A stretch of DNA of 64,000 nt from Clostridia bacterium (GTDB lineage Bacteria; Bacillota; Clostridia; TANB77; UBA1234), in NCBI GenBank assembly GCA_017521465.1, contig JAFXCN010000001.1, forward strand, positions 68,762 through 132,761. The letters are read 5' to 3'. Shown piece after piece: positions 3,316 through 13,694 of the stretch. The notes beneath the pieces are model-generated. The model saw only the letters and a program-made list of their open reading frames with translations. It made no database searches and had not been told where the DNA came from. Position 1 is the stretch's first letter, and every line of letters begins with the position of its first letter. Made by a program: the position numbers and the translations under genes.

Positions 3316-5175
<1,860 letters not shown>

Positions 5176-11482: not shown

Positions 11483-11520
11483 AAAAAATGCCAATGGGCA
11501 GATGACCCCATTGGCATTAA
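11483..11520 (-). terminator. Terminator of the tRNA-like cluster
   Basis: Minus strand TAATGCCAATGGGG, short loop, CCCATTGGCATT followed by a T run. Its AATGCCAATGGG stem core recurs in the terminators at 11985 and 14098. Confidence 0.92.
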
Positions 11521-11524
11521 CTCG

Positions 11525-11656
11525 TACGGATAGCAGGATTTGAACCTGCATTTCTTCACTAATTATGTACTCCCAGTGGTCTGGTTGTACTCATTTGCTT
11601 TCACTCGCCGTTACTTGCAAAAAAGTGAAGTGCTTTACCTTTTAAGCTATATCCGC
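11525..11656 (-). ncRNA. tRNA-like RNA 3, anticodon loop replaced by a 63-nt insert
   Basis: Cloverleaf on the minus strand: acceptor GCGGATA (11656-11650) with TATCCGT (11532-11526, first pair G-U); T8 A9; D stem GCTT/AAGC with an eight-base loop AAAAGGTA keeping G18G19; A26; a 7-bp stem CTTCACT (11630-11624) with AGTGAAG (11560-11554); four-base variable loop; T arm GCAGG-TTCAAAT-CCTGC. Instead of a 7-nt anticodon loop there are 63 nt, holding TTTGC/GCAAA and a hairpin GTAC-AA-CCAG-ACCA-CTGG-GA-GTAC. CTTCACT could also pair with a nearer AGTGAA (about 11605-11600), so alternative folds are possible. No CCA is encoded. It cannot decode in a normal way. Confidence 0.72.
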
Positions 11657-11664
11657 TAACAAAA

Positions 11665-11739
11665 TGGTGGGTGCAAAAGGACTCGAACCTCTACTCTCGA
11701 GCATGGTCACTCGCGTCTTACCATTTAGACTATACACCC
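11665..11739 (-). tRNA. tRNA-like RNA 2, non-standard anticodon arm, encoded CCA
   Basis: Acceptor GGGTGTA with TGCACCC, T8 A9, D stem GTCT/AGAC, loop AAATGGTA with G18G19, five-base variable loop, T arm AGAGG-TTCGAGT-CCTTT, A73 and an encoded CCA (11667-11665). The anticodon arm has only 16 nt: CGAG/CTCG around TGACCATG, or five pairs around GACCAT. A standard 7-nt loop with U33 and purine 37 cannot be drawn. It may be a tRNA (GAC, Val, is the nearest reading) with a one-base deletion or a specialised RNA. Four nucleotides separate it from tRNA-like RNA 1. Confidence 0.65.
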
Positions 11740-11743
11740 ACAG

Positions 11744-11861
11744 CGTAGGAAGCAGGATTCAAACCTGCATCTTTTTGAAGCAGAGGAAGGAGTGATCAGT
11801 TCCTTCCAAATTACGCTTTAAAAGCAGCTTCAAAACGTTCTATCAATTGAACTATTCCCAC
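11744..11861 (-). ncRNA. tRNA-like RNA 1, anticodon loop replaced by a 45-nt insert
   Basis: Acceptor GTGGGAA (11861-11855) with TTCCTAC (11751-11745), including a G3:U70 pair; T8 A9; D stem GTTC/GAAC with loop AATTGATA; G26; a perfect 9-bp stem TTTTGAAGC (11835-11827) with GCTTCAAAA (11781-11773); four-base variable loop AGAT; T arm GCAGG-TTTGAAT-CCTGC; G73. The 45 nt enclosed by the 9-bp stem contain GGAAGGA-ACTGATCAC-TCCTTCC. G19 and C56 of ordinary tRNAs are both changed, to A19 and U56, which can still pair. It cannot decode normally. G3:U70 is the known alanine identity element. Confidence 0.72.
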
Positions 11862-11916
11862 ACACAGACAAAAATACTTGCCGATCACTTGATAACCTTA
11901 TCTTACGACATGGGCA

Positions 11917-11945
11917 ATTATATCACCTTTGCTAATTATTGTCAA
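11917..11945 (-). promoter_or_regulatory. Consensus promoter of the tRNA-like cluster
   Basis: Minus strand TTGACA (11945-11940), exactly 17 bp, TATAAT (11922-11917): a perfect sigma-A promoter. It is followed by a leader of about 48 nt before tRNA-like RNA 1. Together with the terminator at 11483-11520 it defines one transcript of about 420 nt. Confidence 0.93.
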
Positions 11946-12023: not shown

Positions 12024-13565
12024 TTATTTAATTTCAAATTCATTTGAGTAAAAATCAATATATCCATTGTCGTATGTATCTTTTACTATTCTAAAAGTTC
12101 CATTACCTAATTCTCCATAAAATCTAGTCCAATCTATATCTTGTTTAAATTGTCCATTTTCATCTAGTATATAAGCTATTTCTTCAAATATCATTTCAGT
12201 TTGTGGTGCCATATTATACCATTCATCAGCTATTTTTTGTTGTAATTTATAACTCTTTCCCCAACCATAAGGATTTTCATTTTTGTCTGTAATTACTATT
12301 GTCGCACCATTTCGTCTTAGAGTATCCATTAAAACTTCTATAGTAACTTTCTCTTTATCTCTATTAATTATAATTTGTTCTGTCTTTGTACCTATATCAT
12401 CTTTTGATGCAACTTGCATTCCATCTGGTATGTATGCGCTTGTGCTATTTCCTTCATTTTCTTGTGATGGTTGTTCTTTAGGATTTTCATTTATTTGCAC
12501 GTCATTTTGAACTGATGATATATCAGATATTTTAGCTGCAAAGTATGGTAATGCTTTATTTTGTTCTACTAAAAATACTGTAAATGTTTGATCCACATTA
12601 AATTTTCTTGGTTCTTGTGGTTTTGCGCTTGTTGCTCTTACTGACATTCCTGCTTCGCTCTTAATCTTTCCGCCTTTTTCATCTAACTCAAATTGTATTG
12701 TTTGTAAAGCTTTGTCTATTATATATTCATCTCCATTTGAAAAATAAAATGGTTTATTTTCAACTTCAGTTATCTCTTCTTTTAAATCAAAAGTTATATA
12801 AGGCATTTTAAATGTATCATTATTTCTTAAAAACTTTCCATCACTATAGTTTTCACTTTCACGCATAATGCTATTGTAAATATCTAAGAAGTTTTTTTCT
12901 TTATTTCCTACTGATACAATTATTTCATCGTTGCCTTTAGTTTTTATTTTCAATGCAAAATCATCTTCAGAGTTATAATATAAAACATCAATTTGTTCTC
13001 TTACTTCTTTTTTAGTTTTTCCATTAATTCCAAAGTATCTTACATTATTATATTGTCCAAATATTCCATTTTCTAATTTGCTAAATTCTTTTGGATATTC
13101 AAATTTTTTCTTTAACATTGAATACAAGAAATAATCTTTTTCTCCAGCTCCCCCCCAATTAAAATCATCTAATATATCACTTGTTTCATCAAACTTTTCT
13201 TTTATTGCTTTCTCTATTTCTGCTTTTAATTCAAGAGTTGGTCTGCCATATGTTTTATAGTAACTATCTTCTGATAAATCATTTACAGTAAATGTACCTT
13301 TGTTAAGATTATCTACAATGTTTGAATTTTTAGGGAATACTATATCTTGTTTTGCTAAATCATTTTTCAAGTCATTCCATATCAAATTAAATGTTCCACA
13401 CCAAGCAGCATTATCTGATATTTCATCTTCTAAGGAAGTAACTATTTTTATATTTTTATTATTAACATTTTTTCCAACATCTTCTGAATCAAAAGAATTT
13501 GCTGATAAATAAATTCCTGTAGCTATAAGTGCAACTACTATTATACTAATTAATATTTTTTTCAT
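12024..13565 (-). CDS. Exported protein with serpin-like region and C-terminal Ig-like domain
   Basis: A 513-residue protein. The start at 13565 is chosen because GGAGG precedes it by a normal gap; an ATG 14 codons upstream has none. Residues 1-22 form a signal/anchor helix. Residues 285-350 follow the serpin pattern: ALQTIQFELDEKGGKIKSEA (hinge and reactive-loop position), then FNVDQTFTVFLVE, matching the serpin F-x-x-D-x-P-F strand. Residues 395-513 resemble the bacterial Ig-like domain often seen in Clostridia (YGWGKSYKLQQKIADEWYNM, then DWTRFYGELGNGTFRIVK). Membership of the serpin family is inferred from local pattern and could be wrong; the Ig-like domain is firmer. Confidence 0.6.
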   Translation of the reverse strand: MKKILISIIVVALIATGIYLSANSFDSEDVGKNVNNKNIKIVTSLEDEISDNAAWCGTFNLIWNDLKNDLAKQDIVFPKNSNIVDNLNKGTFTVNDLSEDSYYKTYGRPTLELKAEIEKAIKEKFDETSDILDDFNWGGAGEKDYFLYSMLKKKFEYPKEFSKLENGIFGQYNNVRYFGINGKTKKEVREQIDVLYYNSEDDFALKIKTKGNDEIIVSVGNKEKNFLDIYNSIMRESENYSDGKFLRNNDTFKMPYITFDLKEEITEVENKPFYFSNGDEYIIDKALQTIQFELDEKGGKIKSEAGMSVRATSAKPQEPRKFNVDQTFTVFLVEQNKALPYFAAKISDISSVQNDVQINENPKEQPSQENEGNSTSAYIPDGMQVASKDDIGTKTEQIIINRDKEKVTIEVLMDTLRRNGATIVITDKNENPYGWGKSYKLQQKIADEWYNMAPQTEMIFEEIAYILDENGQFKQDIDWTRFYGELGNGTFRIVKDTYDNGYIDFYSNEFEIK

Positions 13566-13694
13566 ATTTATCGCCTCCATATAATTATTAGACAATTTCA
13601 TTTTCAAAAAGTTTCACTAATGTTCTTAAATTATACTATCATAAAATTAAATTACTATCAATTTTAATTAAATTATTTTACTGCTTAAAACAAC

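Follow-up and report, generated by a model that had tools for sequence, protein, structure and literature searches.

What is a tRNA body for when the arm that should read the codon has been rebuilt? The question is raised by a small gut bacterium of an uncultured Clostridia family, whose genome (G000) encodes three tRNA-like RNAs (RNA1, RNA2 and RNA3) head to tail on the minus strand of the 64 000-nucleotide stretch of DNA analysed here (the window, Table 1).

Architecture of the RNA unit

All three RNAs match the Rfam tRNA model (RF00005) over its full length (model positions 1–71, E-values 7e-11 to 6e-7). Their unconstrained minimum free energy folds are cloverleaves with a 7-bp acceptor stem, a 4-bp D stem with an 8-nt loop and a 5-bp T arm. 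The sequences place an A15-U48 pair in each RNA, a G3-U70 pair in RNA1 and a G1-U72 pair in RNA3. The 7-bp acceptor, the D arm, the 5-bp T arm and the elbow contacts are those of a decoding tRNA. The anticodon arms are not. Among the 13 arms of the window and family RNAs (see below), none has, unspliced, a 5-bp anticodon stem, a 7-nt loop and U33. ARAGORN recognizes RNA2 alone, as ‘tRNA-???’ with a 4-nt anticodon and no assigned identity. Within the RNA1 insert there is a 7-bp hairpin with a 9-nt loop.

Table 1. Features of the RNA unit in window coordinates (fold z-scores are against dinucleotide shuffles).
Feature	Position	Strand	Evidence
Sigma-70 type promoter, TTGACA-17-TATAAT	11917..11945	-	12/12 consensus matches; TTGACA and 17-nt spacer also in five other units
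Leader, ~50 nt; its end UUUUUGUCUGUGUGUG is similar to leaders of the operons in G001 and G009	11862..11911	-	Leader sequence comparison; 55 nt from the -10 element to the start of RNA1
RNA1, tRNA-like RNA, 118 nt, no encoded CCA	11744..11861	-	Rfam tRNA 47.3 bits; fold z -4.65; 38/50 core identity to tRNA-Gly(GCC)
RNA1 anticodon-arm replacement, 9-bp stem UUUUGAAGC/GCUUCAAAA, 45 nt enclosed	11773..11835	-	Fold; zero intron-excision options
RNA2, tRNA-like RNA, 72 nt to discriminator	11668..11739	-	Rfam tRNA 52.2 bits; fold z -2.28
RNA2 16-nt arm, 5 bp CGAGU/GCUCG, 6-nt loop GACCAU, no U33	11698..11713	-	Fold; same 5-bp/6-nt arm in G001c and G009b
RNA2 encoded CCA (ACCA)	11665..11667	-	Sequence
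RNA3, tRNA-like RNA, 132 nt, no encoded CCA, G1-U72	11525..11656	-	Rfam tRNA 61.4 bits; fold z -4.29
RNA3 anticodon-arm replacement, 7-bp stem CUUCACU/AGUGAAG, 63 nt enclosed	11554..11630	-	Fold
Intrinsic terminator	11487..11518	-	12-bp stem, then T run

A preliminary description of the locus had proposed three altered anticodon arms on normal tRNA bodies, RNAs that cannot decode as they stand, and a perfect promoter and a terminator around them; Rfam, the folds and the flanking signals in Table 1 bear out each of these points. As modelled, the window RNAs are tRNA bodies that would be unable to decode as they stand. On a purely structural reading they combine a tRNA fold with the lack of a decoding role, as expected of a non-translational pseudo-tRNA.

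The flanking signals recur in the relatives. In all six units, TTGACA, a 17-nt spacer and a -10 element lie upstream, with the RNA start 47–58 nt downstream, and terminators close all five operon units. The end of the leader (GUCUG..UGUG) and the body of the first RNA are visibly homologous in G000, G001 and G009, despite the different loci. We regard the window unit as a complete predicted transcription unit, its expression being a prediction from promoter and terminator. Its upstream neighbour (window 12024–13607) encodes a predicted surface protein that contains a Big_14 domain and weakly matches serpin.

Excision of the inserts

Like intron-containing tRNAs, RNA1 and RNA3 carry an insert in the anticodon arm, and they might be ordinary tRNA genes from which an intron is removed. 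To explore this, every 5′/3′ join that yields a 5-bp stem, a 7-nt loop, U33 and a purine at position 37 was listed. Phage tRNA genes with inserts do splice in silico to perfect arms (see below), and for RNA3, G012a and G002 there are formal joins that give U33 and a purine at position 37. However, there are no options at all for RNA1 and its homologues G001a and G009a, and whether or not anything is excised, no valid arm results for RNA2 (which has no insert), G001c, G009b, G011 or the G001 solo element. The few formal options of RNA3, G012a, G012b and G002 do not include the usual YU...AA loop, of which G001b offers a single marginal case; those of RNA3, G012a and G002 arise from the extended helix, which runs through positions 32–38. 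The CAGCAA motif of the phage inserts is absent from the window RNAs. Thus, in contrast to intron-containing tRNAs, excision restores no canonical arm for most members and only non-ideal ones for RNA3. Excision to ordinary tRNAs had been named at the outset as a finding that would speak against a non-decoding unit; for RNA1 and its two homologues it yields none, RNA2 has no insert to lose, and we consider removable introns highly improbable.

Related units in the family

A covariance model built from RNA1 and RNA3 was run on 13 genomes of the family, all genomes being metagenome assemblies. This search of relatives, suggested in the preliminary description, detected two genomes with long-armed RNAs, G012 (an RNA of 121 nt) and G002 (165 nt). 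G001 came from a class-wide pattern search, and scanning the family genomes with Rfam yielded G009 and, in G011, a solo element; for G007 and G008 the Rfam tRNA results are those among the matches listed, and ordinary-length odd RNAs of other genomes were examined where scores stood out. Operon units thus occur in at least five of the 13 family genomes (the host and four other species, G001, G009, G012 and G002), in addition to the G011 solo element. In G001, three RNAs lie between gltX and the T-box of ileS; G009 has two at the same gltX–ileS site, syntenic with the G001 operon. In both, the first RNA is homologous to RNA1 in its body and flanking leader, and the last has the 5-bp/6-nt arm of RNA2. 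G012 has two RNAs near rplT and G002 has one after a macrodomain/Sir2 pair. G006, which belongs to the same genus, has gltX, a T-box-like leader and ileS, but no tRNA-like RNAs at this site.

Several features lie beside these units. A solo element in G001 (L305 102–179, G001:C13) has its own promoter and encodes CCA; its arm is 20 nt long, with 6 bp and an 8-nt loop. The G011 element (L259 1768–1842, G011:C29), between prfA and rpsL, shares this 6-bp/8-nt arm geometry. Strong hairpins are found between the tRNA-like RNAs and the terminator in G002 (L198 6050–6215) and G012 (L197 ∼ 4540–4690, minus strand), and given these hairpins the two units may carry additional structured RNAs.

Order- and class-wide searches were pattern-based, and such patterns miss divergent members. 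Within that scope, no window-type match was found outside the family in the order: the remaining matches were tandem tRNAs, tRNA-Tyr with introns of group I size, tRNAs with long variable arms, or chance. Class-wide matches outside the family were, by the look of their sequence, adjacent ordinary tRNAs. A model with N inserts (R2) failed to tell long-armed RNAs apart from ordinary tRNAs; one of its seeds lacked two variable-loop bases because the alignment was ungapped, and no conclusion rests on R2.

Selection on the stems

The cores of 11 RNAs from six family species were aligned. All pair cells form (187/187), comprising 176 stem pairs and the tertiary 19–56 contact, which is G-C, A-U or G-U throughout. 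Both sides change in 15 of the 17 pairs, and sliding the partners by one to three columns as a control reduced pairing to 36–49%. Much of this covariation could have been inherited from different parent tRNAs, an ambiguity that comparisons between orthologs alone escape. Between G001c and G009b, differences are found at 1 of 42 paired and 9 of 31 unpaired positions (p = 0.0014); the apical loop is 6 nt long in both, but its sequence differs (UGGAUC against AAGUUC). Between G001a and G009a, three core pairs are changed on both sides and one switches between wobble and Watson–Crick, with pairing kept throughout, while the arm inserts of these two RNAs (164 and 104 nt, respectively) are unrelated in sequence. 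For comparison, fourfold-site differences between the two genomes are 0.19 in gltX, 0.17 in ileS and 0.36 in the RNase J gene. The ortholog comparisons indicate that the body and the length class of the arm are kept and that loop and insert sequences are not. A kept body with a changing decoding end is the reverse of the decoding-tRNA pattern.

These data bear on whether the unit could be made up of decaying tRNA pseudogenes or be the remnant of a phage tRNA array. The distribution in the family is patchy, RNA1 resembles tRNA-Gly(GCC), and phage-like contigs of the family do bear tRNA arrays (G007, G008, G009:C21). Yet the 176 stem pairs of the 11 RNAs contain no mismatch, promoters and terminators are kept, an orthologous operon shows selection on its stems, and the neighbours are chromosomal housekeeping genes (uvrB, gltX, ileS, rplT, prfA, rpsL) rather than phage genes. 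By DNA similarity, one weak 42-nt tRNA match was found in phages and none in plasmids. A decaying remnant absent from close relatives had been put forward as a possible refutation. Its second half holds, in that the region upstream of uvrB lacks a tRNA at the 18 nearest uvrB loci and the units are patchy; its first half does not, as homologous operons elsewhere keep every stem. Decay or a phage remnant is very unlikely.

Canonical tRNAs, CCA and charging

The Rfam scan of the host assembly returned 31 tRNA-like genes including RNA1–RNA3. The other 28 tRNAs are ordinary and all of them (28/28) encode CCA, as do the 32 distinct canonical tRNAs of G002 (32/32). The tRNA closest to the RNA1 body is tRNA-Gly(GCC) of the same genome (Table 1). 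Between the two, compensatory changes are seen at pairs 2–71 (CG to UA), 11–24 (CG to UA) and 51–63 (GC to AU), and the Levitt pair, read from the sequences, is G15-C48 in tRNA-Gly(GCC) where RNA1 has A15-U48.

It had been suggested at first that the RNAs are charged adaptors for a non-ribosomal use, decoys or regulators. As charged adaptors they would serve as aminoacyl donors for cell wall, lipid or peptide, kept off the ribosome by the disabled anticodon arm. The acceptor/T half is indeed intact, CCA is encoded in RNA2, G001b, G009a, G009b, G011 and the G001 solo element, and RNA1 has G3-U70, which is the alanine identity pair. However, 7 of the 13 members (RNA1, RNA3, G001a, G001c, G012a, G012b and G002) lack the encoded CCA that all the canonical tRNAs counted above possess. 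The discriminators and the 1–72 to 3–70 pairs vary from member to member, so that no single synthetase identity fits, and no common amino-acid identity was found in the acceptor stems and discriminators of the members. With no common identity and with CCA encoded in only part of the members, the RNAs are unlikely to share a role as charged donors; aminoacylation of the window RNAs is doubtful, and the adaptor proposal, which fares poorly on these data, seems to us decidedly unlikely.

In the regions fetched, G002 has 35 canonical tRNAs that cover all amino acids except Ala and Ile. Ala and Ile tRNAs are often linked to rRNA and lost from such metagenome assemblies. The idea that the tRNA-like RNAs are needed as extra decoders was discarded, as the formal splice options of the G002 RNA would not supply Ala or Ile.

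Comparison with known RNAs

No described class of such RNAs was found in Rfam 15 or in the open-access literature searched, and we know of no such class of non-decoding tRNA-bodied RNAs; the preliminary description likewise knew of none. Several known systems share parts of the architecture. tmRNA also has a non-tRNA domain where the anticodon arm would be, joined to a tRNA-like half, but the window RNAs have a complete D arm and inserts of only 45–63 nt, and neither Rfam nor ARAGORN detects a tmRNA in the window. Species 1 and 2 of phage T4 (rnaC, rnaD) are stable RNAs of 119–139 nt in a tRNA cluster, and rnaC has a T arm; they differ in having no full cloverleaf, and neither matches the Rfam tRNA model. 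In a partial comparison, the rnaC region scored 16 bits with model R1 and rnaD gave no match.

In engineered tRNA scaffolds, foreign RNA takes the place of the anticodon loop and the rest of the tRNA is left intact. By the same logic, the tRNA body here might be a scaffold for processing and stability, with the variable insert as the functional part (an antisense or protein-binding RNA). The inserts are placed exactly as engineered cargo is, and their folds are stable, as in the RNA1 hairpin. A natural precedent is tRNA-Other of Bacillus cereus, an expressed tRNA-like RNA without a role in translation that forms a tRNA-like element of a larger regulatory RNA (PMC3399842). It resembles the window RNAs, whose expression is predicted only, in being a tRNA-like RNA outside translation, but it has a Trp anticodon and acts in a T-box context, whereas the window RNAs have no anticodon loop, are encoded in operons and have large arm replacements. 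Unlike engineered scaffolds, the present RNAs are natural, are grouped in operons, change their inserts fast and include members without any insert (RNA2, G001c, G009b and G012b). The turnover of the inserts, unrelated even between the orthologs G001a and G009a, and the insert-less members weaken the case for the insert as the active part, and we regard it as unlikely.

The bacterial Y RNA YrlA has a tRNA-like module and mimics tRNA outside translation (PMC8394870). Its D, T and acceptor-like arms are joined to a long helix, as in the window RNAs, but its 5′ and 3′ ends lie in a long stem that binds Rsr/Ro60, whereas a window RNA ends in its acceptor stem. No TROVE/Ro60 protein was found in the 13 family genomes (control: rings in Deinobacterium), and the YrlA model reaches 17.2 bits in the window, below its gathering score of 69, with no match above noise. 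With Ro60 absent, YrlA below gathering and no 5′–3′ terminal stem enclosing an internal tRNA-like module, identity with Y RNA was dropped. Judged by analogy, YrlA is nevertheless the nearest functional analogue. A sub-threshold YrlA match (35.3 bits, E 2.6e-4) was noted in a phage-like tRNA array contig of the family (L195 1117–1228, G008:C41).

A model for the function of the unit

We consider it on balance probable that the unit is an operon whose RNAs are non-decoding tRNA mimics, a new family that acts via a tRNA-body-binding protein, with expression, processing and partner all predicted. This reading is based on the architecture, the conservation of the body rather than of the arm sequence, the homologous operons and the lack of a splice solution for most members; the patchy distribution in the family weighs against it. 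In our model, the strong housekeeping promoter would drive transcription of the unit, and the tRNA processing enzymes (RNase P, RNase Z or exonucleases) would cut the transcript into single RNAs. Each would fold into an L shape whose decoding end is blocked, either because the anticodon stem is extended to 6–9 bp and capped by other structure or because the loop is shortened to 6 nt. Since the conserved part is the acceptor/T/D elbow, the RNAs would act through the elbow and not through the anticodon. By analogy with the tRNA-like module of Y RNA, the likeliest mode would be to bind and occupy, or to recruit, a protein that recognizes tRNA bodies (as a sponge, decoy or tether).

More tentatively, and with a confidence somewhat short of even, we speculate that these RNAs represent a new class of regulatory RNAs with tRNA bodies. 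Their anticodon arm would have been replaced, they would be made from dedicated operons and they would act on a tRNA-body-binding protein as its decoys or tethers, for instance to counter tRNA-targeting toxins or phage functions, and their decoding end would turn over fast. If the tRNA-mimic reading is true, bacteria repurpose tRNA genes by rebuilding only the decoding arm and keeping the body needed for processing and recognition, a natural counterpart of the engineered scaffold. With its own promoters, operons and clean absence in relatives, the family would be a tractable system for non-decoding roles of tRNA bodies. Annotation pipelines at present overlook such genes or label them as odd tRNAs.

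Inserts in phage tRNA genes

The searches also brought up phage tRNA genes with inserts of ∼ 40–64 nt early in the anticodon stem (viral contigs L208 (10900–11137), L224, L234, L241 and L315–L360). In silico excision gives perfect arms for 36 of 45 distinct inserts, mostly with CUNNNAA loops such as CUUUUAA and CUUGUAA. These inserts share a hairpin and the CAGCAA motif, which 49 viral contigs match compared with none for a scrambled motif. From their sequences they look like an undescribed class of mini-introns. The window RNAs have the extended helix at the place of the phage insert, and the insert-bearing phage tRNAs are a different phenomenon. In the phage-like tRNA array contig mentioned above, a long-armed tRNA with an encoded CCA carries the variant motif CUGCAA (L195 1780–1900, G008:C41). 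Finally, two genomes of the order contain tRNA-Tyr genes with introns of ∼ 220 nt, the size of group I introns, after the anticodon (L177 177–483 and L184 1304–1611).
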